Shown here: one piece after another, positions 9,858 through 30,344 of the stretch
Numbering within the stretch: position 1 is the first letter of the stretch
Layout: each line of letters opens with the position of its first letter
Assembly (NCBI RefSeq): GCF_900109575.1
Contig: NZ_FOAF01000016.1
Coordinates: 1-64,000 of the forward strand
Length of the DNA: 64,000 nt
Source of the DNA: Olivibacter domesticus
Lineage (GTDB): Bacteria; Bacteroidota; Bacteroidia; Sphingobacteriales; Sphingobacteriaceae
Reading direction: 5' to 3'
Made by a program: the position numbers and the translations under genes
Notes under the pieces: generated by a model
Databases searched by the model: none
Seen by the model: only the letters and a program-made list of their open reading frames with translations
What the model was told of the DNA's origin: nothing

Positions 9858-10223
9858 ATGAGCTACAGTAGACAAGCAACGTTAAGTTGTGAAAATAACA
9901 GTGATGCTACCTGTTCTGTGGAGGCGGCACTCTCCATTATCAGTGGAAAATGGAAACTGAAAATATATAAAATATTACGACAGGGAGAGCCTCTTCGTTT
10001 TTCGATGATTGCCAAAGGCTTGGGTGATGTTTCTGAAAAATCATTGACCTTTCAATTGCGGGAGATGGAAAGCGATGGCATCATTGTTCGAAAGGTGTAT
10101 CCTGAGGTGCCTCCTCGCGTAGAATATGGGTTAACCGACTTGGGTAAGTCTCTTCATATTGTTTTTGAATCGCTTGATGTTTGGGGAAAAGCTTATATCA
10201 AAGCGAATAAATTGGAGGTTTAA
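9858..10223 (+). CDS. HxlR-family transcriptional regulator (second copy)
   Basis: 121 aa from the ATG at 9858; the frame is open to 9831, but the promoter box overlaps that segment. It has S-I-I-S-G-K-W-K-L-K-I-Y (HTH helix 1), S-E-K-S-L-T-F-Q-L-R-E-M-E (recognition helix) and the wing V-Y-P-E-V-P-P-R-V-E-Y. Two cysteines (about residues 10 and 18) precede the HTH and could act as a thiol sensor. It overlaps the convergent HSL-type hydrolase gene by 4 nt, so read-through transcription of either would be antisense to the other. Confidence 0.9.
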   Translation: MSYSRQATLSCENNSDATCSVEAALSIISGKWKLKIYKILRQGEPLRFSMIAKGLGDVSEKSLTFQLREMESDGIIVRKVYPEVPPRVEYGLTDLGKSLHIVFESLDVWGKAYIKANKLEV

Positions 10224-11218
10224 AGATGTTTTTTTAGCTCTGCGCCGCTATGGGCGAAAAGGGAACGGGTTTGAGGAAGGTCTGACAGTGCGTTAAATAA
10301 ACCGAAATCATGTATTACACCGTTGTAGGTAACAGTTGTTACGGGAACGCCTGCTTTGTCTAATTTTCGTCCGAAGGCTTCGGCCTCAGCTCGTAAAGGA
10401 TCATTCTCTGCTATTTGTATAAATGTTCTGGGTAATCCGGAGAGCTGGTCTAAACTAGCACTAAGGGGCGAAAAATACATTTCACTTTTATCTTCCTCGC
10501 AGCGCGCATATTGATCTGCCGCCCAATTTCGTAAAGCGGAAGCAAAGCGATGAATAATATCTGGCAGTACTGTGGAAAGTTCTCGAGAAACGCCACTTGT
10601 GATTGGGCATATTAACACCAGCAAACGGAACTTTATTTTATTTGCTGCGGTGGCCATCATGGCAATGGCCACAGCCATATTTCCACCTGCACTGTTGCCA
10701 ACTAAGCCAATCCGGTCGGCAAAAATGTTGAGCTCCTGCGCGTGTTGCGAAATCCATATGCATGCCGCGTATATTTCTGCCAAGGCTTGGGGGTATTTAG
10801 ATTCTGGGGAAGGTGTATAATTGATAGAGATACCGGTGTACTGCGATTCTACTACTAAGTCTCGTATCATGCGTTTATGCGATTCAAAGTTGCCGAACAC
10901 CCAGCCGCCCCCGCAAATAAATATAAAGGCAGGCAAAGTTCCCTCCAGGTATTTGGGCCTTACGATTTCCAGGGAAAGGGTAAAACCATCGGCGTTGATG
11001 TGTCTGGTATAAACGGTGATTCCCGATAAATCTGTTTCAACAGCATTTTGTGTTTCGAAGAATTTTTTTCGGGCATCGCTGATATTTAATTTATTCAAGT
11101 TCACCTTGGAGATGTCAATGGTTTCCAAGAAATCCCTGGTTTTTTGCGAGAGTTTTTCCCAATTGTTGAACGCTTCTGATTCGCTGGCTTTTCTGTTTGC
11201 TGCTGATGTTTTTTTCAT
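10220..11218 (-). CDS. HSL-type alpha/beta hydrolase (esterase), CGGG oxyanion motif
   Basis: 332 aa from the ATG at 11218; an upstream ATG at 11275 would add 19 basic residues. Hormone-sensitive-lipase family: nucleophile G-N-S-A-G-G, acid in A-E-N-D-P-L-R, histidine in G-V-I-H-D-F-G. The family's HGGG oxyanion motif reads C-G-G-G-W here, a His-to-Cys change not shared by the paralogue at 15471. There is no signal peptide, so it is cytoplasmic. The region upstream holds a -24/-12-like element (11331-11345) and dense TTTACG/CGTAAA palindromes (11391-11424), suggesting control by a neighbouring sigma-54 activator. The substrate is probably a short-chain ester. Confidence 0.88.
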   Translation of the reverse strand: MKKTSAANRKASESEAFNNWEKLSQKTRDFLETIDISKVNLNKLNISDARKKFFETQNAVETDLSGITVYTRHINADGFTLSLEIVRPKYLEGTLPAFIFICGGGWVFGNFESHKRMIRDLVVESQYTGISINYTPSPESKYPQALAEIYAACIWISQHAQELNIFADRIGLVGNSAGGNMAVAIAMMATAANKIKFRLLVLICPITSGVSRELSTVLPDIIHRFASALRNWAADQYARCEEDKSEMYFSPLSASLDQLSGLPRTFIQIAENDPLRAEAEAFGRKLDKAGVPVTTVTYNGVIHDFGLFNALSDLPQTRSLFAHSGAELKKHL

Positions 11219-11330
11219 GCTAAAACTTTTCTCATCATGATTTAATAAAGAAGGTCTTCTAGAGCAGCTCCGCATTTTTCTAGCAGCGTGCTTACGTCAC
11301 CTTTTTATCATGATAATTCGCTCACAGTTG

Positions 11331-11345
11331 CCAAAAGTAGTGCCA
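11331..11345 (-). promoter_or_regulatory. Possible sigma-54 (-24/-12) promoter
   Basis: Reading on the minus strand: TGGCACT, four bases, then TTGG. The GG-to-G spacing of 12 matches sigma-54, but the last base of the -12 GC is G. It lies about 110 nt before the hydrolase ATG. Confidence 0.35.
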
Positions 11346-11390
11346 ACGTGTAATCGTCAATCAGCCAATATATTAGGTTTTTTGCTTGCT

Positions 11391-11424
11391 CGTAAATTTA
11401 CGATTTTTTACGAAAAATCGTAAA
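11391..11424. promoter_or_regulatory. Palindrome cluster, putative activator binding site
   Basis: CGTAAATTTACG (11391-11402) is a perfect 12-bp palindrome. TTTACG-N6-CGTAAA follows at 11407-11424. An overlapping 8-bp inverted repeat (CGATTTTT/AAAAATCG, 11401-11420) also spans it. It lies about 45-95 bp upstream of the -24/-12-like element on the hydrolase side, the usual place for an enhancer of a sigma-54 promoter. Confidence 0.5.
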
Positions 11425-11454
11425 TTCATGTCGCAAAATGGAAGTCGCTTCTGT

Positions 11455-14400
11455 TTATAATTTATATGTTTTAGATAAACCAAGGCGTTTTATTTTGCTA
11501 TAAACGGTGGTAGCTGGCATCCCTAATAATTTAGCGGCTCCACCCGGCCCGGCAACTTTGCCATTGCACCGCTTCAAAATACCCATCAAATGCTGCTTTT
11601 CACTCTCTTTCAATGAATAGCCATTATTATAGGTAGCTGATGAGACATCTTCGTTAACTGATGCCACTGGTATATTCTCGGGTAAATTTATTTCTTTGAT
11701 GATTTTTCCGCTTGTCATGAGCATGGAGCGCTCTATATAATGTTCGAGCTCTCTGACGTTCCCCGGCCAGTTATAATGCACTAATTTTTGCATAACATCT
11801 TGCGACAGACCACTTATTTCTTTGCCAATTCTCCTGTTATATTTCTGAATAAAATGTTGTACGAGCATAGTCATGTCTTGTTTCCTGTCTCGAAGGGCAG
11901 GGGCTATTATCGGAAAAACATTTAACCGATAAAATAAATCTGCCCGAAAAGTTCCTGCACTAACTTCTTGCTGAAGATTTCTGTTGGTGGCGGCGATGAT
12001 CCGTACATTCACCTTGATAGGAGAACTGCCACCAACGCGTTCAAATTCTCGTTCTTGTAAGACACGTAATAATTTAACCTGAAGTTCTAAAGGCATTTCG
12101 CCCACCTCATCAAGAAACAGCGTTCCTTGGTGAGCCAGTTCAAATTTTCCTATTTTGCGTTCAAAAGCGCCAGTGAAACTGCCTTTTTCATGGCCGAATA
12201 ACTCACTTTCAATTAGATTTGCGGGCATAGCAGCACAGTTGATTTTTACCAATAACTTGTTTTTTCGGGTGGAATGATTGTGTATGGCTCTGGCGAGCAA
12301 TTCTTTTCCTGTGCCGGTTTCTCCAGATATTAGTACGGTACTGTCTGATTGGGATACTTGATCTATCAGTTGAAAAACATTTTGCATCAATGGCGAATCG
12401 CCTATAATTTCACTATACTCATAATGCTTCTTAATCTCTTCATGGAGCAGTAAATTCTCTTCCTCCAGTTTTCTTTTATAACTTTCAATTTGTTGAAATT
12501 GCTTCGCTATTTTCTCGCTAGATATTAAGTTTGAAACCGCTACTGCAATTTGTGACGAAATGCCTCGTATCATGTTGAGCTTTTCGGGCGGAAAGCTATT
12601 TTCACGATCGCTGAACAGGAGTAGAAATCCCATGTATTTCCCTTCCACTTTAATCGCCAATACGCCGATTTCCTTAATGCCACTTTCATAGTTCATGGCT
12701 ACAAATGCGGGCATTGATTGATCATGTCGGATTTCTTCTGTTTCGAAAATTTCGAGTTGTCCTGATACTATTGGTTTTTGGAAAAGCGGGCATTTCATCG
12801 AGAAATGATTATTTTTAACCGTTTCGTCAAATTTGGGATGATTAAAATTTCGAGAATGTGGATCTAAGATGAAGGGACTCGTTGTTTCACCCCCTTCGTC
12901 GATTAAACCGATGACGGAGTGCGCGAAATAAAAAATCTTCTTGAGGTTTTCATTAATAAGCTGAAGAAAATCTTCGCTGGTCTTAATCGCCGCAAATTGA
13001 TTGCTCAATTCCAGCAATTGTTGCTGCTCTTGTTCTCTTTTCTTAAGCGTTTCATAAGCTTTTACATTTTTTAGTGCTATGGTGAGGTAGGGAGCAAGCA
13101 TGTTAAATCGTTCGGTGGTTTGCGCTAGATCTGTTTGCGTTGAAAATAGCGTGAATAGCACAGCGGAGACGTCTTTTTCTATCGGGATGGGAAAACAACC
13201 AACCGTTGTTGATCTGCTGTTTTCTGTTTCCGTAGCTAAAAAGGGCCGGAGCTCTTCTGTCAAATCGTTTGTGCCAATATAACAGGGCACTCCTTTTAAT
13301 GCTACTTCTAAGAGGAGTTGCCCTTGGATATTTTCCCACCGGTCCTCGCTGATGATGGATGCGTTTACTTGATCGCCCTGCTGAAACTTGTCGATCGTTA
13401 ATAAAGAATACTGTTTTTCAGTATTTTTAACAAGTACGATGGTGGCTTCCTTAAAGGCTATTACATTTGTTAAACCATTAAAGATGAAATCGAAAAAATC
13501 AACGCTATTTCGAATGGAAGCTAAACTTTGACCTAAAGTGATGAGCGACTGGCGTTGTTGCTCTTTTGCCTCTAATAAATCTTGTGTAATAAGCGAATGG
13601 GTGGCCAGCGATAAGAAGAAACTTAATGCGACCTTGAAAAAGGAATCTAGCTTCAGAAAAATTTCTTTTTCGGAAAATAATATCAGTTTTCCAACAAATT
13701 TTCCGTCGGTCTGTAAGGTGATTGTTAATGCTTGTTTAATACCTGTTTCAGCGCAGAAGCTAAGATGTGCTGCTGTATGTATTTCTTTAATGGGAAGCTG
13801 CTTAATGTCGTAAATATCTATTGGATCTTCGTCGTCAATTGATTGCGTATCGATAAGAGACGGAAGGCAGGTTGCCAGCCATTCTTTGAAAGCGGGATGC
13901 TCTTTTCGCTTAGCCTCGAAATAGCTAAAATAAAGGCCGGTTTGGTTAAGGGCATTCAAGGGAACCAACAGCGCAATATCATCATAGTTCCAGATTTTTC
14001 GTAAATTTTCTAGTAATACATTTAAAAAATCTCCACGAGATCGAATGGTGGAAAGGGCTATCCGAAGATCTCTTGCAATTTTTCGCTCATTGTTGATTCG
14101 GAATTGCTCCTCTTGGGTCTTAAGGGATAGTAATTTATCTACGATCGATGCCTCGAATGGTTCAAGTGCTTCGAGGTTCATGCTATTTGCTTTATGTGAG
14201 AATAAAGACAATACACCGATCACATTGCTATCGTAGATAAGGGGAAGATGGCAGCTGTTAGTGACTATGCCGTTTTCTGCGCGAATGATATCAGTTTGCG
14301 GCGCCCTGGTAGCGAGTGCCCGTTCCATGATCGTTCCCTCCAAATTGGAACCTGAACAACGGAAGGCAAGAACGTTCGCGGAGGTGTCTTGGACCACTCG

Positions 14401-15135
14401 GGTGTCCAAAAAAGAACAATAGCGAGCGCGATCAAGATCAATTATGAATATGGCGGCATGTTCAGCGCCCATAAAGGGAAGAAAGTGCCTTATTAACCAG
14501 TCTTTTAGTTCGCTTTTTGTATAAGCGGTTGTCAAGGTGGCTTGCAATCTGCGCTCTTGCATACGCGCCTCAATGATACGCTTTAATGATTTGGTTTCTT
14601 GAATCTTTGAGAAGGTCAATTGGAGGTATAAAGATATGGGCTTGCATAGCGCTAATAAATCTGTTTCGCTGATAACACTGTTTGGTGATCGATCGAAAAA
14701 TATAGCAACTTCTTGATTCACTTCTTGAGTAGGAATACCTACAATTTCAGTAACTCCTAGTAGATTAAATATAACGGCAACACCATTTTCTTTATTAATA
14801 TCAGGGCCGTTAATCGGAAGGAGGAGTGGTTCTCCTGCCTCAACCACGGTGTTGAAATAGTTGTCAAAATAATCGCATGGCGTCTCCCGATAGAATGCCG
14901 ACTGCTCCTCCGACGCAGATAGAAGGTGATCTATAGAATAGGTGATTTTATCCTTATTCAATTGACAAAGTAAAATACTTTTCGTTCCTAAAATCGACAT
15001 CAGTTTTTGTCTCAAAATCGACAGTACTTCTTCAACTGATTTAGCTTTGCTCAGCGAAAGGCATAACTTTTCAAGTATGTCTTCTTGGCCAAACAATATC
15101 CGTGTTGGATAATCTACTTCGAAACTATTTTTCAT
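11455..15135 (-). CDS. Sigma-54 activator with about five GAF-like modules
   Basis: 1226 aa, far longer than typical activators of about 450-700 aa. Five repeated GAF-like segments span roughly residues 20-170, 190-340, 350-520, 525-690 and 700-870, joined by short helices. A coiled linker and an AAA+ domain (about 905-1135) follow. Visible there are Walker A G-E-T-G-T-G-K-E at 938, the sigma-54 contact loop G-S-F-T-G-A at 985 (canonical GAFTGA), Walker B L-F-L-D-E and [10 protein letters not shown] Fis-type HTH ends the protein. There is no receiver domain, so it is not a classical two-component regulator. It is cytosolic and senses unknown ligands. It lies between two paralogous HSL hydrolase genes. 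Confidence 0.93.
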
Positions 15136-18288: not shown

Positions 18289-20427
18289 ATGTCAAAGGTG
18301 AACGATGGTATCTCAGAAAATTATATGGATGCAGAATCGATTCTGCCAGAGGATACGATGATTAGACTAAGCCAGTCACTTGCCACGATTCGTACGAAAG
18401 AAGCGTTTCAGCTTTTTTTACGAGAGAAGCTATATAGACTGGTGCCGTTTAAGGAGGGCTTTATCAGTACATTTGATCAAACTACAGAAAGCTATAAGCC
18501 TTACTTTACAAGCCATTTATTTAAACAACTGGCTTTCGACGAACAAGCTTGGGGTACTACATTGGCTGTTGGCTCAAGTGCTATAAATGAGGTAATCGAT
18601 AGTCGTGGACTGCAAGGTCACGTGCTCACATCTCGAATGTTTGAGCAGCTTGTGGAGTCTGGTCATTTCTTCGAGATTTCAAAGGAACTTCTTGTATTGG
18701 TGGGGTGTAGGTTACAAGCAGGTGACCATATTGTCGGTTTTCTTTGTCTTGTGCTTAACAAGTCACAATACCATGCGAATTATGCTGAAAAATTACTCGC
18801 TCGGATTTCGGGCCATCTGTCAACAGTATTAGCAAATATTCTGGCTTTAGAACAATTAAGCAACAGGGATCGGGAACAGGCTGCTTTATTGGAAATCAGC
18901 AATGATTTTGCAGCTATAAAGGATTCGAAGGATTTTTTGGATATCGTTAACAATAAGCTAAAAAAACTTTTTAATTTTTCGCATAGCGTGTTAAGTTTGA
19001 TAACTGAAGACGGCCAATATCTTTACCCATATATTTTTGATCCCAAAAATCCTAATATAAACCATCAACTCTATGATAACGCAATAAAGCTAAAGTTTCC
19101 CACAACCTATCACATTTTTAAAGAATCGTTAGAGAAAGGCACTGTTTTGGTATATAAAGTGGATGATCTGTTGATGGACGAAGATGCTCCGGTGTTTATA
19201 AAAATAAACCATGATAATAAAATGAGGGAAATGGCTGTTTTGGCATTAGGAGCTGAGGGATCTTACGTTGGCTTCATTCAGTTTTGGACACGGGTCATGG
19301 GAGCCTTTTCACCTTCTTGTTTGGAAATTATTGGTAGCGTATCGCAGCAGGTCGCAATCGCCTTATCGAACTTACTGGCAAAAGATAAAATTGCGGAGCA
19401 GCTCGCAGAGATAGAGCGTTACAAAAAGAAGCTGGAAGACCAGAATGTTTCGCTGCAGGAAGAGCTCAGCGCACAATATAAATATAGTGAAATAGTTGGG
19501 GAAGGGGGGGCAATAAACTCCGTGTTTAAAGCTATTGGGCAAGTTGCATCATCAGACAGCACCGTGCTTATTATTGGTGAAACAGGCACAGGTAAGGAGC
19601 TGATTGCAAAAGAGATTCATAATCGATCTAAGCGTAGCACTAAATTGATGGTTAAGATCAATTGCGCGGCGATACCGCTTAACTTAATAGAGAGTGAACT
19701 CTTTGGGCATGAAAAAGGTAGCTTTACAGGAGCGGGCGAAAGGAAGCTTGGCAAATTTGAACTTGCAGACGGTGGAACGCTTTTTCTGGATGAGGTAGGT
19801 GAGATGCCAATGGAAGTACAATCGAAGTTATTACGTGTTTTGCAAGAGCGGGAGATAGAACGTATAGGTGCCAATTTTCCAATAAGCATTGATGTGCGTA
19901 TTATTGCGGCAACAAACAGAAATTTGCTTCAGTCGGTGGCCTCGGGAAATTTCAGGGCAGATTTATTTTATAGATTGAACGTTTTTCCAATTGTGGTACC
20001 GCCCTTGCGCGAACGGAAAGGCGATATAAGAATCCTGGTCAATCATTTTCTGGAGAAACATGGAAAAAAAATAGGTCGGAAAATTATGGGAATTTCGAAG
20101 CAAGTGCTTCATGACTTTCGTCAATATGATTGGCCAGGAAATGTGCGTGAGCTCGAGCATGTTATTGAGCGTAGTATACTAATGACTTCCCAACCGATCA
20201 TTACGGAGGTTTATTTGCCAAATAGTAAAACAGATAGAATAGTTTCCTTTTTGGAGGATTTACCTCCAACATTGGCGCTTGAAAAAAACCATATCACGCA
20301 AGTGCTACAGCAGTGTGGCGGTAAAGTATCTGGATCTGGTGGCGCGGCGGAAGTGCTGGGAATGCCGCCTTCCACACTATTCAGCAAATTGAAACGGCTG
20401 GGCATAAAGCGAAATTATTCGATGTGA
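18289..20427 (+). CDS. Sigma-54 activator with two GAF-like modules
   Basis: 712 aa. Two GAF-like modules (about 25-200 and 205-375) precede a coiled linker with I-E-R-Y-K-K-K-L-E and an AAA+ domain. Walker A G-E-T-G-T-G-K-E is at 430, contact loop G-S-F-T-G-A at 477 (Ser for Ala), Walker B L-F-L-D-E near 498. A Fis-like HTH ([11 protein letters not shown]) lies at the C-terminus. There is no receiver domain. The second GAF and everything after it match the end of the five-GAF protein closely, so these are paralogues. It is divergent from the catalase gene, its most likely target. Confidence 0.93.
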
Positions 20428-20460
20428 TAAAGGCCTCGTGCAACGATAAAAAGGCAAAGT

Positions 20461-20534
20461 AAAATTACGAAACGGCTGAAGCTGCTATTTGCGTAATTTT
20501 ATGTCGTGTTTTTACGTAAGTTCGCTGATTTACG
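20461..20534. promoter_or_regulatory. TTACG repeats upstream of the LytTR gene
   Basis: AAAATTACG (20461-20469) and its complement CGTAATTTT (20492-20500) form an inverted repeat with 22-nt spacing. The palindrome TTACGTAA (20512-20519) and TTTACG (20529-20534) follow. The ten bases AAAATTACGA recur exactly at 25531-25540. Confidence 0.5.
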
Positions 20535-20545
20535 ATTTCTGTTTT

Positions 20546-20580
20546 TTTGTAAACAATTGATTATTAGTAGTTTATTTTTG
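20546..20580 (+). promoter_or_regulatory. Bacteroidota promoter for the LytTR regulator
   Basis: TTTG (20546-20549), 23-nt spacer, TATTTTTG (20573-20580): -33/-7 boxes at the long end of the usual spacing, 43 nt before the ATG. This fits primary-sigma transcription better than the weak TGG..TTGA at 20579. Confidence 0.45.
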
Positions 20581-20623
20581 GTATTAAGATTGAATGGGCT
20601 AATGAAATTAAAAACTCAAAAAA

Positions 20624-22762: not shown

Positions 22763-25423
22763 ATGGGTAAGTTGATTAAACCTGAAGTAAACAGAAACCA
22801 AGCGACGAGTTTCTTTTTAAATGAGGCGGAGTTTAGTATTGATTACTATAAACGTGAAAGGCAGGTTATTCTGCAGCTTAGTGAAGACATTACCCAAATT
22901 CATGAGAAGGCCGATTTAATGACGCTACTGTCTTTACGAATTAAAAGTTTTTTCTATTATGTCCACGCGATTGTGACGATCATTGATGAGTCGGATCATG
23001 TTTATAGACCATTTATATTAGACCCGGTATCTTCGCCCTTAAAGGATCACCCCGACTATCCAGTTTTAATCAAAACTGGTTTTGAATTGGACGAGCCGTT
23101 CATAACGAAGGTTATGGCAGCTGATGGTCCTGTCTCTTTTCGGTTAGACGAGCTTATATTGCAACCGAAAAGCCCATCCTTTTTACGTGTAAATTACGAG
23201 TGCGGTATGAAGGCAATACTGATGACACCGCTAAAAAGCAATGCAAGAACAGTCGCCTTTTTACATGTTTACTCTGATAGTGAAGACAGCTTTACACCGG
23301 CATTTAGAAGTCTTATCAAGGGAATTGCCCCTCAGATTTCAAATGCTGTTTCTAACGTCATTAGAAATGAACTAATTGTGCAGAAAGAGGAAAACAATAA
23401 GATTTTATTAGATGCCAGTTATGATCTTTCGGGAGTAAGGAGTCGTGAAGATCTAGCGGTTGCTATCGACAATTCCTTAAAAAGATTGAAGGCAATGAGC
23501 GGCTATGTCATTCGGAAAGTCAATGACGATAGGCAAACGATGAGTGCTTATATTTACGATAACACTATTTGTATACAGGAAAATGAAGATTTATCGGACA
23601 TCTTGAACTTCAAGTTTCCGATTGACGATGGTTTGCAAAATCGCGTGCTGGCAAGTCCTATTCCAATACTTATCAATGTTGATTCGGAAATTGAGCGCGG
23701 TGTTAGGGCGGAATATCTCTCTTTCTGGAAGCGAATTGGGTTTCGGAAAATGGTAGGTGTTGCGCTTCGTAATGGAGATTCAGCTCTTGGCATTTTATGG
23801 TTAGGGATTGATGACATAAATTTAACCTTATTAAAGGGAATATGCTCGCAGATATCTATAGCAATGGCCAATATTATGGTAAACGATGAGCTTGTTAGAA
23901 AACAGGAGGAACAGCAATTGCTGCTTGACTTCTGCGACGACATAGCAGGTGTACGCACAAAGTCCGATTTGCGGGTTGCGATATTCAATGTTTTTGAAAA
24001 GTTGCTGAACACTAAACTGGCGATGCTCAATTTACTCGAAGACGATGGCATAACATTCCGGCATTACATGTGGGATGAGACCCTTTTCGAAAAGGTGAAG
24101 ACGAGCTTTGATGAACGGATGGAAGCTAGGCTTGACATTCATGAAAACTATACCACTAAAGTATTAAATAGCGGAGATGTGGTGATTTTTAGCGTGGAGG
24201 AGGAATTAAGGCTCGATGCCAATAATCCTTATGCGCTGTTGTGGGAAAAAGTTGGATTTAAGTATGCATATGCGACGGCGCTGCGCGTGGGAAATACAGA
24301 TATAGGTACCTTATGGTTGTTGAGTGATTATATCAATCCCGAACTAGTGAAGGGCATCTGCGCCCAAATCTCTGTTGCATGTGCCAATATCAGGGCAAAT
24401 GAGCGAATTCTAGCCTATAAACGGATTCTGGAAACAGAAAATGAATTGCTCAAGGAGCAAATGAGAACCATCTATAATTTCGAGGAAATCATTGGTACTG
24501 GCGATGCCATGCAAAAAGTGTATGAACTGATGAGCATGGTTGCTGAATCACATTCGACCGTTCTCTTGACTGGCGAAACAGGAACAGGAAAGGAGCTTAT
24601 TGCCCGCGCCATCCATAATGCCTCGTCTCGTAAAAGTAAAGTGATGGTAAAAGTAAACTGTGCGGCACTGCCCGCAAACCTGATAGAAAGTGAACTTTTT
24701 GGTCATGAGAAAGGCGCCTTTACCGGTGCCTTAGAAAGGCGTATTGGAAAATTCGAAATGGCAAATAATAGCACCTTATTTCTTGACGAGATAGGCGAAA
24801 TGACATTGGATGCACAGGTCAAATTATTACGTGTGCTTCAAGAGAAAGAACTCGAAAGAATAGGTGGCACAACTACTATTAAAGTAAACGTCCGTATTAT
24901 AGCAGCAACCAACCGTAACCTAGCAAATGAGGTTAACGAAGGCCGCTTCCGTTCTGATCTTTTTTATCGTCTCAATGTATTCCCCATTCATTTGCCTCCG
25001 CTTCGCGATCGAAGGCCAGACATCGTTTTGCTGGCACAGTTTTTTTTAGATCGTTACAATAAAAACACAGGGAAGAATATAAAAGCACTTTCAGCAAAAG
25101 TTGTGAAGGAACTGAATGGTTATAGTTGGCCCGGAAATGTGCGAGAATTGGAACATGTAATTGAACGCAGTGTTTTGATGGCAACCGATTCGGTGATCAG
25201 AGAAATTTATTTACCGGTAAAGAATACGGAAACAGCGGGTGAAGCTAATATGGCTAATAGAACCTTAGAGCAAGTTGAAAGGGCTTACATAATAGATACT
25301 CTCAAACGCTGTGCCGGCAAACTTGCTGGACCTGGTGGTGCTGCAGCATACCTCGATGTTCCATCTACCACGCTCCACTCCAAACTGAAAAAACTTCGTA
25401 TCGAAAAGAAGGATTATTTTTAA
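22763..25423 (+). CDS. Sigma-54 activator with three GAF-like modules
   Basis: 886 aa. Three GAF-like modules (about 30-200, 210-370 and 385-560) each end in a similar 'G-I-x-x-Q-I-S-x-A-x-x-N' helix. An AAA+ domain follows, with Walker A G-E-T-G-T-G-K-E at 604, canonical contact loop G-A-F-T-G-A at 651 and Walker B L-F-L-D-E, then a Fis-type HTH ([11 protein letters not shown]). There is no receiver domain. It lies directly upstream of the operon beginning at 25704, which has a -24/-12 promoter and repeated TTACGA boxes. That operon is the obvious target. Confidence 0.93.
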
Positions 25424-25458
25424 TCCTTAGGCAGCTTCTCCCTTTTACTAGGTGCACA

Positions 25459-25493
25459 AAATGCTGTTCAATGTTAATTGAACAGCATTTTTT
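25459..25493 (+). terminator. Rho-independent terminator
   Basis: 14-bp perfect stem (25459-25472 with 25477-25490), 4-nt loop, and a T-run at 25488-25493. It separates the activator gene from the operon that follows. Confidence 0.9.
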
Positions 25494-25534: not shown

Positions 25535-25578
25535 TTACGAAAAGTGCTAAAGACACGATATTACGAGCATTTTTACGA
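25535..25578. promoter_or_regulatory. Three TTACGA boxes, putative enhancer
   Basis: TTACGA at 25535-25540, 25561-25566 and 25574-25579 (the last with five preceding T), all in one orientation, about 75-120 bp upstream of the -24/-12 promoter. That is the typical distance for a sigma-54 activator site. Confidence 0.5.
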
Positions 25579-25652
25579 GTAATGGCGATATATCGTGGCT
25601 TTTTCTAATCTGTTTTATTTTCAATGTATTGATTTTCAAGTTTTTAGTTGAA

Positions 25653-25667
25653 TGGCACGTCACTTGT
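25653..25667 (+). promoter_or_regulatory. Sigma-54 (-24/-12) promoter of the seven-gene operon
   Basis: TGGCACG (25653-25659), TCAC, TTGT (25664-25667). The -24 element is a perfect consensus match, the spacing is right, and the last base of the -12 GC is T. It lies 36 nt before the first ATG. No TAnnTTTG box was found in this gap. Confidence 0.65.
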
Positions 25668-25703
25668 CTTAATGGTTGTGGTATTAACATTAAATGAAAT
25701 TTT

Positions 25704-26468
25704 ATGAAAATCGTAGTAATTGGAGGCTCAGGCCTTATTGGTAGCAAGTTGGTACACAATCTTCGAATGCTTGGTCACGAAGTGTTTGCAGCTTCACCCG
25801 CAACGGGTGTTAACACCATTACAGGTGAAGGCTTGGCGCAAGCCCTTGAAAATACTCAGATCGTTGTAGATGTGGCCAACTCTCCATCTTTTGAAGACAA
25901 AGCGGTGTTGGAGTTTTTTGAAACCTCCGGACGCAATCTGCTGGCTGCCGAGAAAGCTGCCGGTGTTGGACATCACGTGGCATTATCGGTGGTAGGGACC
26001 GAGCTTCTTTCGGAGAGTGGTTATTTCCGAGGTAAAATTGCGCAAGAGAAATTAATTCGTGAGTCGGGCATGCCTTATACAATTGTGCATTCAACTCAAT
26101 TTTTCGAATTCTTGGGCGGGATAGCCAATTCGGCCTCAGACGGAGGTGAAGTACGTTTACCTACTGCTTTTGTTCAGCCAATTTCTTCTGATGATGTAGC
26201 GGCTGCATTGACAGAAGTGACACTAAATAATCCTGTTAATGGTATCGTAGAGATTGCAGGACCTGAGCGCTTTCGTATGCCAGATCTCATGCAAGAATAT
26301 TTCACGATTACGAATGACGCACGTAAGGTAGTAGGTGATCGTCAAGCGCGTTATTTTGGGGCACTATTAACAGATGAAATGCTTTTGCCGGCCGGCGTGG
26401 CTCATGTAGGCAGCAGCAGGATAATAAGTTGGTTGGAGAGTCAACGCAAAACAGAAAAAGCTTCGTAG
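25704..26468 (+). CDS. NmrA-like NAD(P)-binding atypical SDR
   Basis: 254 aa. N-terminal V-V-I-G-G-S-G-L-I-G-S-K-L cofactor motif. The Y-x3-K pair of classical SDRs is absent: the active-site region reads Y-F-R-G-K-I-A-Q-E-K-L-I-R, then Y-T-I-V-H-S-T-Q-F-F-E-F. This is the pattern of NmrA/HSCARG-like and QorB-like proteins, which sense NADP(H) redox state or reduce quinones. It is the first gene of an operon read from the -24/-12 promoter at 25653. Confidence 0.85.
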   Translation: MKIVVIGGSGLIGSKLVHNLRMLGHEVFAASPATGVNTITGEGLAQALENTQIVVDVANSPSFEDKAVLEFFETSGRNLLAAEKAAGVGHHVALSVVGTELLSESGYFRGKIAQEKLIRESGMPYTIVHSTQFFEFLGGIANSASDGGEVRLPTAFVQPISSDDVAAALTEVTLNNPVNGIVEIAGPERFRMPDLMQEYFTITNDARKVVGDRQARYFGALLTDEMLLPAGVAHVGSSRIISWLESQRKTEKAS

Positions 26469-26481
26469 AATATTGATTTGA

Positions 26482-26590
26482 CTTCGTAACGAAGATGACG
26501 GGTGTCAGCTCCTGGAGGAGGCTGTAAGGGGTGTGCACTTTCCACCCGTTCGTGCACGAGACAAACCCACGTCGGCATGGAGTTACCATG
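26482..26590 (+). ncRNA. Structured, GC-rich intercistronic segment
   Basis: Several hairpins in the 185-nt gap after the NmrA-like gene: CTTCG/CGAAG (26482-26494); CGGGTG (26499-26504) with CACCCG (26543-26548) enclosing CAGCTCC/GGAGGCTG (26506-26524); the palindrome TCGTGCACGA (26550-26559); and CATGG/CCATG (26576-26590). It is markedly GC-richer than its surroundings and not obviously coding. It could be an RNA processing, stability or control element. No known riboswitch is recognised. Confidence 0.35.
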
Positions 26591-26653
26591 AAATACCGAT
26601 CAGTTACACTGGGAAACGGAGGCAGAGAATATTAACTTAATAAATTTAGGACA

Positions 26654-27067
26654 ATGAGAATAATAGATTATATTATACAGAAAGGCTATTTGTGGTCGCA
26701 AATAACAAAGCTTCTCGAAAACCTTTATAAGGTGGATGCAGAGCAAGACAGCGTAGTATGTGCCGCCTACGGAAGCGAATTATTGGACGATACACGGATG
26801 GTAGATCAACCTTTAGAAAAAAGTGTTACACACCAAATTACCATGGGTGACTTTGCTCAACTTGGTCAAATTCCTTACCTATTGGTTCCCTTTCACGGAG
26901 AAGCGGAAGCAACGAAAACGAAGAAGAAATACAACGTTTTGAATTCGAAAATTCTAGTGGTGAATCCTGCTCAAGATGAGTTAGAACGTGCTATTGCATC
27001 AGAAGTTCCTTTTCCTTGGAACCAATTCAAGTTATATGCACTCTCTCAGGATATCGAGACTAATTAA
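26654..27067 (+). CDS. Hypothetical protein in the sigma-54 operon
   Basis: 137 aa with no signal peptide or membrane helix and no family that I recognise. It is soluble, with one cysteine (about 36) and a charged E-A-E-A-T-K-T-K-K-K linker in the middle. It begins 10 nt after the AT-rich stretch that ends the structured gap. Its 3' end overlaps the pirin-like gene by 32 nt in another frame if that gene starts at 27036, so the two are translationally linked. Confidence 0.6.
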   Translation: MRIIDYIIQKGYLWSQITKLLENLYKVDAEQDSVVCAAYGSELLDDTRMVDQPLEKSVTHQITMGDFAQLGQIPYLLVPFHGEAEATKTKKKYNVLNSKILVVNPAQDELERAIASEVPFPWNQFKLYALSQDIETN

Positions 27068-27917
27068 ATCGTCTTTCATTGGTAATCAGGATTTTTCAGT
27101 GGTTAAGGTACGCGCATCTTCATTCGATGGTTTAATGGATCCATTGCTCGGTTTCGAACATTTTAAAATGAGTACACAGGCATTTCGTCCACGTCCATAT
27201 GCAGGTATGTCAATTATAACGTATCTTTTTAATGATTCGGCACCTTATCACATCCTGGATACGGCAGGAACCGACCTTATTCTTCAACCCGAATGTTTAA
27301 GTTGGACACAGGCGGCTAAAGGACTGGTTCGTACGGCATCTCCTAAACCTGAAGGGCTTTTTTCGCACGGTTTACAGATACTGATCGATATACCTGGAAA
27401 GCATAAACAACTGAACCCAAAAGCGATCGCCCACATGGAGGCGCATTCCATTCCAGAAAGAGTTGACCATGGTGTTAACATGAGGGTGTTAATAGGCCAT
27501 GATGGGGATGGTATATCGCCAATTGATTCGCAGCAGGCATTTACGTTTTTGCATATCACGATCGCGAACGGTGAAAATTTTGTCTGCGATCTGCCTACCG
27601 GTTGGAATGCCACGGCTCATCTATTAAGCGGTGCCGTACGGATGCAAACCAATATTGGCATTAGCTATCTCAGTGCTGGGGTAACGGTAGCTTTAGGAGA
27701 GTCTTCTTTTATAGAACGTTTATCTTTTATTGCACACGCACAAAGCGAACTCTTGTTTTTCAGTGGTTTGCCGATCCAGGAGCAAACGTGCAATTCCGGA
27801 ACCATGTTTATGTCATCAACGGAGGATTTAGGAAGGGCTATTGCGGATTACGAAGAGGGAAAAATGGGCTTTATAACCCTAATAGAAGGAAGATGGCAAG
27901 TTATCCCGCCGGTGTAA
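27036..27917 (+). CDS. Pirin-family protein lacking the metal-binding residues
   Basis: 293 aa from the ATG at 27036; the frame is open to 26988. Bicupin pirin fold: L-D-P-L-L-G-F-E-H-F, G-L-Q-I-L-I-D-I-P-G-K-H-K and the C-terminal pirin domain E-S-S-F-I-E-R-L and F-F-S-G-L-P-I. Canonical pirins bind metal with the His pair of the H-P-H-x-G-F-E motif and with His/Glu of G-I-V-H-S-E. Here the aligned segments read R-P-R-P-Y-A-G and G-L-V-R-T-A, so all four ligands are replaced. Quercetinase-type or iron-sensing activity is therefore unlikely. It is part of the sigma-54 operon. Confidence 0.82.
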   Translation: MHSLRISRLIKSSFIGNQDFSVVKVRASSFDGLMDPLLGFEHFKMSTQAFRPRPYAGMSIITYLFNDSAPYHILDTAGTDLILQPECLSWTQAAKGLVRTASPKPEGLFSHGLQILIDIPGKHKQLNPKAIAHMEAHSIPERVDHGVNMRVLIGHDGDGISPIDSQQAFTFLHITIANGENFVCDLPTGWNATAHLLSGAVRMQTNIGISYLSAGVTVALGESSFIERLSFIAHAQSELLFFSGLPIQEQTCNSGTMFMSSTEDLGRAIADYEEGKMGFITLIEGRWQVIPPV

Positions 27918-28039
27918 GAAGTGTGGTCGACTGAAATTATCCAACATAATTAATTGATAGTATCAAAATAAAGTGTTTACCCCGGGCAGCGATTGCCCAA
28001 CAATTCGATATATATTTTAAACAATTAAAACAGACAAAA

Positions 28040-28399
28040 ATGAACGAGTATTTAGTAGTTGTCCACAGAGACATCACCAGCAAGAACCCGAAACCTACTG
28101 CAGAACAAATGCAAATGGCAATGAAACCTTATCAGGAATGGATCGCTTCTATTGCGGCACAAGATAAGTTGGTTGCCCCTCCTAAACGTTGGGATGTAGG
28201 CGGAAGAGTAATTAAAGGCATGAAATCGATGGCAAAGGTAAGCGAAGGTCCATTAGCGACCGATAGTCTTTCAATTGGTGGCCTCTTTTTAGTGAAAGCC
28301 GATGATTACAAGGAAGCGGTTAAACTTGCAAAAGCTTGTCCGATAATCCAATACGGCGCTATTGTAGAGGTGCGTGAGGCTATTCCTCCGGTACAGTAA
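28040..28399 (+). CDS. YCII-domain protein
   Basis: 119 aa, a single YCII-related (dimeric alpha-beta barrel) domain: N-E-Y-L-V-V-V-H at the start, M-K-P-Y-Q-E-W-I helix, G-G-L-F-L-V-K-A-D-D-Y-K-E-A-V-K-L-A-K-A-C-P and G-A-I-V-E-V-R-E at the end. The C-terminal half matches the usual 'A-x-x-A-A-x-C-P' signature. The biochemical role is not established for most members. The 122-nt gap before it contains only a small 5-bp hairpin (27984-27998). Confidence 0.85.
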   Translation: MNEYLVVVHRDITSKNPKPTAEQMQMAMKPYQEWIASIAAQDKLVAPPKRWDVGGRVIKGMKSMAKVSEGPLATDSLSIGGLFLVKADDYKEAVKLAKACPIIQYGAIVEVREAIPPVQ

Positions 28400-28405
28400 A
28401 TTCAG

Positions 28406-28513
28406 AAGGGGCTGTCTAAAAGTCATTCGTCAACGTCACCTCGAGTGAAGCATTCTCCACTCAGCTGGGTTTTGGACGAAATGATGGTCAATGCTACTTT
28501 TTAGGCAGCTCCT
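28406..28513. repeat. Long palindromic element (MITE- or REP-like)
   Basis: About 108 nt that fold on themselves. Outer arms GGGGCTGTCTAAAAGT and ACTTTTTAGGCAGCTCC, then TCATTCGTC with GACGAAATGA, then GAGTG with CACTC around a short loop. Mobile or REP-type palindromes with such GGGGCTGTCTAAAAA ends are familiar in Bacteroidota. It sits between the YCII and SdhC genes and would be transcribed with the operon as one long hairpin. Confidence 0.65.
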
Positions 28514-28544
28514 TTCAATAGGCGAAATTTAACAGATAATAGAT

Positions 28545-29216
28545 ATGAATTGGCTTATTAAAACATTAACAAGTTCTGTCGGTAAAAAATTTACAATGGC
28601 ATTTACTGGTTTATTTCTGATCAGTTTTCTCATTGTTCATGCCAGCATAAATGCGCTTATATTTTACAACGACGGAGGAGAGATTTTTACTATAGGGGCA
28701 CATTTTATGGCAACAAATCTCATTATTAGAACGATCGAAATTGTATTGGTAGTAGGTTTACTGTTACATATCATTCAGGCCTTATTGCTTTGGCGCTCAA
28801 ACCGTGCCGCTAGGCCAATAAGATATGCAGTTATTAAACATCCTCCTCAAAGTACCTGGTATAGTCGAAGTATGACCCTATTGGGTACATTGATTCTACT
28901 GTTCTTGGTTATCCATACATCAAATTTTTGGATTCCAAATCGCACACACCAATTTTTGTATGGGGAAGAGTTACCGCTCTACGACATGATGATTGAGAAG
29001 TTTAGTGACCCGATAGAGGTGGTGATCTACCTTTTGGGAGCTTTCTCCTTGTTTTGGCATCTATTACATGGCTTTGCAAGTGCTTTCCAAAGCCTCGGTT
29101 TAGACCATAACAAATACAAGGGATTGATCCGGTTTACGGGTAAGGCTTTTTCTGTGATTATCTGCTTGACTTTTGCCATGATGCCCATATCTATCTATTT
29201 GAAATGGATCAGATAA
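28545..29216 (+). CDS. sdhC: Succinate dehydrogenase cytochrome b subunit, orphan copy
   Basis: 223 aa, five predicted membrane helices. It matches the b558-type SdhC/FrdC of Bacteroidota: S-S-V-G-K-K-F-x-M-A-F-T-G-L at the N-terminus, conserved histidines in I-V-H-A-S, L-L-H-I-I-Q-A, V-I-H-T-S-N-F-W and F-W-H-L-L-H-G-F-A-S-A-F-Q-S-L-G for two haems. It binds haem b and menaquinone in the membrane. The flavoprotein (SdhA) and iron-sulfur (SdhB) genes that normally follow are absent, and instead it is inside a stress-type operon. It may act alone on quinone or substitute in the complex; this is inference. Confidence 0.88.
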   Translation: MNWLIKTLTSSVGKKFTMAFTGLFLISFLIVHASINALIFYNDGGEIFTIGAHFMATNLIIRTIEIVLVVGLLLHIIQALLLWRSNRAARPIRYAVIKHPPQSTWYSRSMTLLGTLILLFLVIHTSNFWIPNRTHQFLYGEELPLYDMMIEKFSDPIEVVIYLLGAFSLFWHLLHGFASAFQSLGLDHNKYKGLIRFTGKAFSVIICLTFAMMPISIYLKWIR

Positions 29217-29297
29217 GAAGTTTCTTGCTTCGTGGGGGAGTAAAGGGAAGTCCGGGCAAATAAAGTGGTACATGGAACAATAAAACATTAGTGATCG

Positions 29298-29729
29298 ATG
29301 ATGGAGTACATAAAAAAATATATTGTAAAAGAAGAACACACGGATTGGCAAGGTAATATGGAAGGTTTATATTACCCTTATTACCTAGAAGATTGCCGTC
29401 ATGCTTATATTAAGGAAATTCTGTGTTTCGATTTCGAGGAAGAAGCACGAAATGGGATAAGTATGGTGTTATCCAACTATCGTATACAGATCCTGCGATC
29501 ATTAAAAGGAGGGAGTAACCTTTCTGTCAGCTGTACGGTTTTTAGAGATAAAAGTGCATCTACACTTCTTCATTTTAAGCAGATGATTACTTTGCGGGGA
29601 AAAATTGTAACACTCGGATTGTTCTCCAGCACTTGTACGCCTTCAAATGGGGGGAGGTCGTTTTTGCCTCCATCGCTGAACCGTTTGTTAAGCAGGGTTC
29701 CGTTGTTGGAAACTCTGTCCAATTTTTAA
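29298..29729 (+). CDS. Hotdog-fold acyl-CoA thioesterase-like protein
   Basis: 143 aa; an ATG one codon later could also start it. The N-terminal segment H-T-D-W-Q-G-N-M-E-G-L-Y-Y-P-Y-Y-L-E-D-C-R-H resembles the 4-hydroxybenzoyl-CoA thioesterase helix, with the usual D-x-x-G/N-x-x replaced in part. L-S-N-Y-R-I-Q-I-L-R-S-L strand and F-K-Q-M-I-T-L-R-G-K follow. The C-terminal 30 residues are Ser/Pro-rich and overlap the open frame leading to the AhpD gene. Cytoplasmic. Its substrate is unknown. Confidence 0.65.
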   Translation: MMEYIKKYIVKEEHTDWQGNMEGLYYPYYLEDCRHAYIKEILCFDFEEEARNGISMVLSNYRIQILRSLKGGSNLSVSCTVFRDKSASTLLHFKQMITLRGKIVTLGLFSSTCTPSNGGRSFLPPSLNRLLSRVPLLETLSNF

Positions 29730-29767
29730 TTCTCAATTGTCAAAATAAAAATTTAAAACAAGTAAAA

Positions 29768-30220
29768 ATGGAAACCAGAATCAATGCATTCGAAAAAGGA
29801 AAAAAAGCAATGGGCGCACTATTTACATTAAGTGGTTACTTGAAAAAATCTGCTATTGAACGCGAGCTATTAGAGCTCGTAGATTTCAGAGTTTCGCAGA
29901 TAAACGGTTGCGCTTATTGTCTTGACATGCACTCTAAGGAGTTGCGGGCGATTGGTGAAACAGAACAGCGGCTTTATGGTTTAAGCGCTTGGAGAGAATG
30001 CCCCTATTATAGCGCTCGCGAAAGGGCCGCATTGGAGTGGGCAGAAGCATTAACGAAGGTGCAGGTGACCGATGAAATTTACCGCATAGCAAAGGAGCAA
30101 TTTTCTGACGAAGAACTAGTGGATTTGACGTTGGGCGTCACCACCATCAACACATGGAATCGTTTTAATCTAGCGTTCGAGAACACGCCTGGTACTTATC
30201 AAATAGGTGCATTTGGCTAA
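29768..30220 (+). CDS. AhpD-family carboxymuconolactone decarboxylase-like protein
   Basis: 150 aa from the ATG at 29768, preceded by AAGTAAAA. Core motif N-G-C-A-Y-C-L-D-M-H-S-K-E-L has the redox Cys-x2-Cys and following His typical of AhpD-like peroxidases. V-T-T-I-N-T-W-N-R-F-N matches the C-terminal helix. It reduces peroxides or serves as a thiol relay in the cytoplasm. Last gene of the sigma-54 operon, followed by a terminator at 30320-30344. It is the clearest antioxidant enzyme in that operon. Confidence 0.9.
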   Translation: METRINAFEKGKKAMGALFTLSGYLKKSAIERELLELVDFRVSQINGCAYCLDMHSKELRAIGETEQRLYGLSAWRECPYYSARERAALEWAEALTKVQVTDEIYRIAKEQFSDEELVDLTLGVTTINTWNRFNLAFENTPGTYQIGAFG

Positions 30221-30319: not shown

Positions 30320-30344
30320 GAATCCCCGTCGTGCACGGGGATTC
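30320..30344 (+). terminator. Terminator of the seven-gene operon
   Basis: GAATCCCCGT and its exact complement (30320-30329 / 30335-30344) with a 5-nt loop, followed by T-rich TATTATTCTTTC. Confidence 0.75.

Follow-up and report, generated by a model that had tools for sequence, protein, structure and literature searches.

Sigma-54 promoters combine a GG at -24 with a GC at -12 at fixed spacing, in the consensus TGGCACG-N4-TTGC. The described system closest to the locus analyzed here is that of FhlA, which has a sigma-54 target with upstream dimer sites; this layout is shared with our locus, the palindromes of which are presumably unlike the FhlA site in sequence. Within the Bacteroidota, -24/-12 elements have been found at mapped transcription starts of Flavobacterium psychrophilum, where one operon was mutagenized in a reporter (PMC9723704). 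The organism studied here belongs to the same phylum, and the targets described in the parts of that paper drawn on here are different in kind, comprising gliding motility, envelope stress and exported proteins. Sigma-54 regulons have also been computed by matrix across phyla, with targets predicted in Bacteroidota (PMC12316311); the main text of that study contains none of the terms sphingobacter-, mucilaginibacter, pedobacter or chitinophag-. At the level of titles and abstracts, the open-licence papers searched report neither sigma-54 control of NmrA genes nor enhancer sites of the activator group considered below.

We analyzed a window of 64,000 nucleotides from Olivibacter domesticus (bases 1-64000 of a 66595-bp contig), which encodes three paralogous GAF/AAA+/HTH activators (15135-11455, 18289-20427 and 22763-25423) surrounded by oxidoreductase and hydrolase genes and, by eye, a catalase. 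An initial annotation had placed a sigma-54 promoter directly after the activator gene at 22763-25423, and a 280-bp gap does separate the end of this ORF from the next start codon at 25704 (Table 1). Comparison of this gap with its counterparts in other genomes makes it quite probable that the whole is a sigma-54 promoter unit, in which the GAF activator, acting on two palindromes, switches on an adjacent NmrA-type gene of detoxification type.

The activator has the domains of an enhancer-binding protein: a Sigma54_activat AAA+ domain (PF00158, 243.9 bits) with GAFTGA in its translation, and a DNA-binding HTH (HTH_8, 24.4 bits). RpoN itself is encoded once in the genome (one Sigma54_DBD match, 190 bits). 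The activator had been annotated with three GAF domains; three GAF-like repeats can be discerned by eye in the translation, but Pfam reports a single GAF stretch. FhlA-type GAF/AAA+/Fis proteins have the same domain order, and FhlA is the best NCBIfam model of this protein at 404.5 bits, which is below the cut-off of that equivalog (NF011958, 830 bits) and leaves the activator FhlA-like rather than assigned. The two further differ in that the presumed target here is NmrA, not formate hydrogenlyase, and in the three GAF-like repeats seen by eye. Immediately behind the activator gene lies a strong hairpin, missing from the list of a consensus terminator scanner, which would end the gene, so that a separate promoter is probably required for the gene that follows.

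Among 399 genomes of the family, 15 others encode an activator alignable over nearly its full length (47-58%), with further ones at 37-44%. The recognition stretch of the HTH reads PGNTLHSK in 14 of these 15 relatives, PPSTLHSK in the remaining one (G340) and PSTTLHSK in the window. In the four other genomes of the genus, nothing matched the activator at E<=1e-90. A profile scan of genome contigs with the activator alignment returned 80 loci, including one close relative (Mucilaginibacter gossypii), the rest being enhancer-binding proteins at large. In M. gossypii (L075/L192), three GAF activators are clustered with SDR and hydrolase genes in an arrangement that resembles the window by eye.

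Table 1. Features of the NmrA promoter unit and of the paralogous units in the window (predicted from sequence)
Feature	Position	Strand	Remarks
Sigma-54 activator: GAF-like repeats, AAA+ with GAFTGA loop, Fis-type HTH	22763-25423	+	Pfam, translation
Likely intrinsic terminator of activator gene	25458-25491	+	15-bp stem, T run paired with A run; -19.1 kcal/mol, z -7.6
TTACGA box 1	25535-25540	+	Outside conserved palindromes
Predicted enhancer palindrome UAS2, GACACGATATTACGAGCA	25552-25569	.	Axis 92.5 bp upstream of -24 T; PWM rank 53 of 63983 positions
TTACGA box 2	25561-25566	+	Within right half of UAS2
TTACGA box 3	25573-25578	+	Between the two palindromes
Predicted enhancer palindrome UAS1, ATGGCGATATATCGTGGC	25582-25599	.	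Axis 62.5 bp upstream of -24 T; PWM rank 24 of 63983
Predicted sigma-54 -24/-12 element TGGCACGTCACTTGTC	25653-25668	+	Predicted start near 25678
NmrA-like NAD(P)-binding oxidoreductase, conserved target	25704-26468	+	Pfam PF13460/PF05368
Covarying structured RNA element	26471-26631	+	Starts 3 nt after NmrA stop
Further ORFs of proposed operon: unknown, pirin, YCII, SdhC b558, unknown, AhpD-like CMD	26654-30220	+
Likely terminator (hairpin) after CMD gene	30320-30344	+
Alpha/beta hydrolase, hormone-sensitive-lipase-like (below NCBIfam cut-off)	10220-11275	-	Presumed target of paralogous unit
Second sigma-54-like element TGGCACTACTTTTGGC	11330-11345	-
Palindrome TTTACG-N6-CGTAAA, TTTACGAAAAATCGTAAA, after 1226-aa activator	11407-11424	.	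PWM rank 12 of 63983
Paralogous 1226-aa GAF sigma-54 activator	11455-15135	-	60% identical over AAA+HTH
Third paralogous activator	18289-20427	+	TTACGA at 20465 and 20530 behind

The sequence TGGCACGTCACTTGT occupies 25653-25667, as first annotated, ahead of the NmrA start codon, and matches the -24/-12 consensus with one mismatch, T for C at -12. Rarity by itself proves little, since TGGCACGN4TTG occurs twice in the 6.78-Mb genome, including 25653, and once in the reversed control. The looser TGGCAYN5TTG has three copies in the window (25653+, 11345- and 41576+), the first two behind activator genes and the third within an ORF. Combined with an upstream hexamer, as TTACGA-N44..74-TGGCAYN5TTG, the pattern is found at two places in the genome (25573-25666, +; 11395-11332, -), both behind activator genes of the window, and nowhere in the control.

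The promoter call draws strong support from relatives, in which the -24/-12 element recurs at an equivalent position ahead of the NmrA gene. Our set of NmrA promoters drew on 62 matches at E<=1e-60, 30 of them with DNA, with G259 and the first G388 copy added from other loci; two loci gave no result (L271, where the start was not located, and G007, with 37 bp before the contig end). Each sequence was anchored on the first loose match to the -24/-12 pattern lying no more than 110 bp from the start codon and was cut at fixed distances. The window element can be aligned with the promoters of relatives ahead of the same start codon, and the NmrA orthologs behind this promoter are 51-59% identical. 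In five genomes (G206, G251, G302, G388 and G259), the activator gene is followed by the -24/-12 element and then NmrA. The gene order varies by genus, with the activator first in g14 and g15 and NmrA first in g16, and the promoter layout before NmrA is kept. The T at -12, described initially as an imperfection, is indeed a mismatch to the consensus, but it is the commonest base at this place in relatives (element position 15: T in 8, A in 3 and C in 2 of 13; T in 5, A in 3 and C in 2 of the 10 distinct elements). Strict TGGCAYN5TTG fits six of the 13 relatives and the other seven depart from it, and the base usage suggests that promoters of this activator group can do without a C at -12. The predicted sigma-54 promoter before NmrA is highly likely to be real. 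Separately, the second NmrA copy of G388 (L248, upstream of 1501) has TGGCATTTCCATTGCA 77 bp before its start, with no strong palindrome pair.

Upstream of the -24 box, relatives carry two TTCACTATATATAGTGAA-like palindromes with axes at 62-63 and 92-93 bp. These distances were first spotted in g15 and afterwards applied to the other genomes. A pair at those axes is present at the NmrA loci of 13 of the 14 genomes with a PGNT-type activator ortholog; the exception, G270, has such an activator and NmrA, but no -24/-12 anchor and no palindrome pair. Matrices excluding the tested genus group still recover the 30-bp pair in the 13 relatives, the lower score of each pair being 9.3-21.1 bits. The other NmrA promoters (n=14) show no comparable pair, with none above 2.2 bits (the maximum is the second NmrA copy of G388), and no 30-bp pair exceeds 2.2 bits in G340. 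The activators of G332 have another helix type.

In the window, which was excluded from the matrix, the two best sites of the gap fall at the UAS1 and UAS2 positions. With the 13-genome matrix they form the only pair of that strength at a spacing of 19-40 in 64 kb, and a g16-only matrix ranks them 6 and 49, again as the sole such pair. When the gap was shuffled 20000 times under a first-order Markov model, the observed minimum was never reached at both places, with one base of slack. The pair is weak, with a lower score of 3.8 bits vs 9.3-21.1 bits in relatives. Under a matrix from g14 and g15 only (six genomes, two genera), the two window sites fall to ranks 188 and 64, and the window contains 10 further pairs 19-40 bp apart, two of them at 30 bp; the window sites have thus clearly diverged. 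This divergence parallels that of the recognition stretch (PSTTLHSK vs PGNTLHSK in relatives). As far as sequence can tell, the promoter has the upstream sites typical of its class, two predicted palindromes at a conserved distance, in a diverged form.

The pattern TTTCACKN6MGTGAAA has one site each in six of nine genomes, a count not above the reversed control, so its place rather than its number is the evidence. Five of these six sites lie behind the activator; the sixth, in G088, lies before NmrA together with a -24/-12 element on another contig than the activator, and this target retains both palindromes. We consider it very probable that the paired palindromes are the activator's enhancer. 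Enrichment of TYACGANNNNTCGTRA in its own genome was considered and rejected (2 sites vs 3 in the control).

The initial annotation had assigned the enhancer to three phased TTACGA boxes. Sites upstream of the promoter and the positions of the boxes stand, but the conserved predicted element is the palindrome pair at 25552-25569/25582-25599 rather than the boxes, and the box starts are 26 and 12 bp apart, which is not phased. Relatives have a TTTCACTRAATATAGTGAAA-like palindrome where the window has its TTACGA cluster. The hexamer is nonetheless striking behind the window's activator genes, where 9 of its 55 window copies fall within the 655 bp of the three gaps; the density in other intergenic DNA would predict 0.41 (Poisson P ~7e-10). 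It is 16-fold enriched there and heads the eight hexamers common to all three gaps with at least four copies; the palindromes alone do not account for this. At least two TTACGA within 400 bp are found behind only the window's three among 72 activator ends (0 of the 69 others). A paralog elsewhere in the genome (C13, L004), with a start that is PAS-like by eye, is followed by 1482 bp devoid of TTACGA.

One could read these counts to mean that the three hexamers themselves are the binding sites of the activator. The enrichment and its restriction to three of 72 ends favor this, as do the four copies in the paralogous unit, partly arranged as the palindrome TTTACG-N6-CGTAAA that ranks so high by the relatives' matrix; aligned on their axes, the TTTACG and TTCACK half-sites would share AC at the same place, and G302 and G088 each have one reverse TTACGA between their two palindromes. 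Yet no TTACGA lies within 200 bp of the start codon in 10 of the 13 relatives with the promoter, the single copy of G206 lies downstream of its -24/-12 element, boxes 1 and 3 fall outside the palindromes, the spacing is irregular, and no family-wide excess is apparent by eye. On balance we regard this reading as unlikely. Within the genome, pairs of TTACGA separated by 2-30 bp show no enrichment (42 vs 94 in the reversed control). As a family-wide enhancer, TTACGA was rejected: 159 of 399 genomes contain the two-part pattern, at counts resembling the reversed control by eye (unsummed). Likewise rejected was the recognition stretch P[SAP][TS]T as a predictor of TTACGA, as many others among the 72 ends share this helix without having two or more boxes. 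The TTACGA enhancer pattern looks local to this genome, and the hexamer may represent a half-site variant belonging to this group of activators, with its fullest development at the 1226-aa paralog.

A related and equally improbable proposal is that the TTACGA-type sites in all three gaps are bound by a single activator of the window or by a common heteromeric set, such that the paralogs cross-regulate their targets and the palindromes at 25552-25599 serve the local activator only. The same hexamer does stand behind three paralogs with unlike recognition stretches, but these are candidate binding sites only, and the third gap is without a good -24/-12 element: in the 20428-20623 region behind the third activator, two TTACGA and several CGTAA are followed by a LytTR response regulator gene, with no recognizable -24/-12. 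The stretch from 11330 to 15135 has the appearance of a second complete unit with the layout of the first, with the 1226-aa activator, the TTTACG palindrome, the sigma-54-like element and the hydrolase. The axis of TTTACGAAAAATCGTAAA is 70.5 bp upstream of its own -24 T, with the same inner geometry, and the palindrome contains TTACGA. The 1226-aa paralog has no match at E<=1e-200 in the 398 other family genomes.

It is very improbable that NmrA is transcribed from a housekeeping -33/-7 promoter, with the -24/-12 match a product of chance: housekeeping promoters in Bacteroidota are loosely defined and may escape a scan, and the reversed control of TGGCACGN4TTG yields one copy against two real ones, but the element, its spacing and the enhancers are conserved, and TTG-N17..23-TAnnTTTG is absent within 450 bp upstream, a weak point in that it is absent at all 29 loci scanned (over only 37 bp in G007).

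Under the sigma-54 reading with paired palindromes, transcription of the activator gene would end at the terminator at 25458-25491. The GAF-sensor AAA+ activator would bind as dimers to UAS2 and UAS1, 30 bp or about three helical turns apart, and contact sigma-54 RNA polymerase waiting at 25653-25668, which it would open in an ATP-driven step. Transcription would then start near 25678 and run into the NmrA-type oxidoreductase gene and probably on into some of those downstream. Because the neighbors are of NmrA, pirin and AhpD type, the signal sensed is perhaps an electrophile or oxidant. Comparison across genomes shows the predicted promoter element, both palindromes, their spacing, and the link to the activator family and its target; judged in this way, the window unit is ordinary in kind and well anchored. 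One activator family, two predicted sites, their spacing and a target are tied together in three genera besides the window's own. The layout offers a promoter ready for testing, and the genomes form a natural series for co-change of activator and site.

Just behind the NmrA stop codon, the window carries a predicted RNA element. Six other family genomes have DNA beside NmrA that matches it at 82-86% identity over 69-147 bp. The element begins 3-24 nt after the NmrA stop in six of seven family genomes and lies before NmrA in G340. A copy with 78% identity over 139 bp is found on a Variovorax paradoxus plasmid (NZ_CP138516.1, 790354-790492), where CMD (41% identical) and NmrA (73%) follow 2.4 and 3.1 kb on; folded as a single sequence, this copy has an unremarkable energy (z -1.4, equaled by 15 of 200 shuffles). 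In an alignment of eight rows, two of them near-copies and the structure derived from the same rows, both partners change in 22 of 43 pairs. Covariation amounts to 57 cells vs 21.6 in shuffles, with none of 500 shuffles as high, and is lost when partners are slid; further pair types are not above shuffles (297 of 500). An ACGGGTG/CACCCGT pairing is not claimed, as three of eight rows carry a base change that disrupts it. Rfam 15 (4227 families) gave no match at E<=5 to the window or L248 copies and one CRISPR-repeat match to the L274 copy, at 18.7 bits vs a cut-off of 42. When the model built from the element was run against 82 sources, every hit was an already known copy, and a set of 80 diverse loci gave no hit. 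We tentatively propose, at somewhat less than an even chance, that the NmrA transcript carries an RNA class absent from Rfam 15 and present also in other genera and Variovorax, that NmrA is under dual control by the GAF activator on paired palindromes and by this RNA, and that the window activators have drifted in helix and site together (PGNT/TTCACT to PSTT/CACGA, TTTACG).

The ORFs from 25704 to 30220 all run one way, and the annotation had taken them as a single operon. Whether the predicted promoter drives a seven-gene transcript seems evenly balanced. In nine neighborhoods searched with the operon proteins, NmrA stands behind the activator in five; in those five, no other operon gene is directly behind NmrA, and weak AraC- or SDR-type matches lie kilobases off in two. 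In G007, from another genus and outside the nine, NmrA (80% identical), the RNA element, SdhC (75%) and CMD (71%) occur in this order, the NmrA promoter being off the contig. G340 has relatives of YCII and CMD beside GAF activators. In this genome, a strong TGGCACACGGCTTGCC (L191 13320, -) precedes a tandem array of three YCII genes, with GAF activators in the surrounding region.
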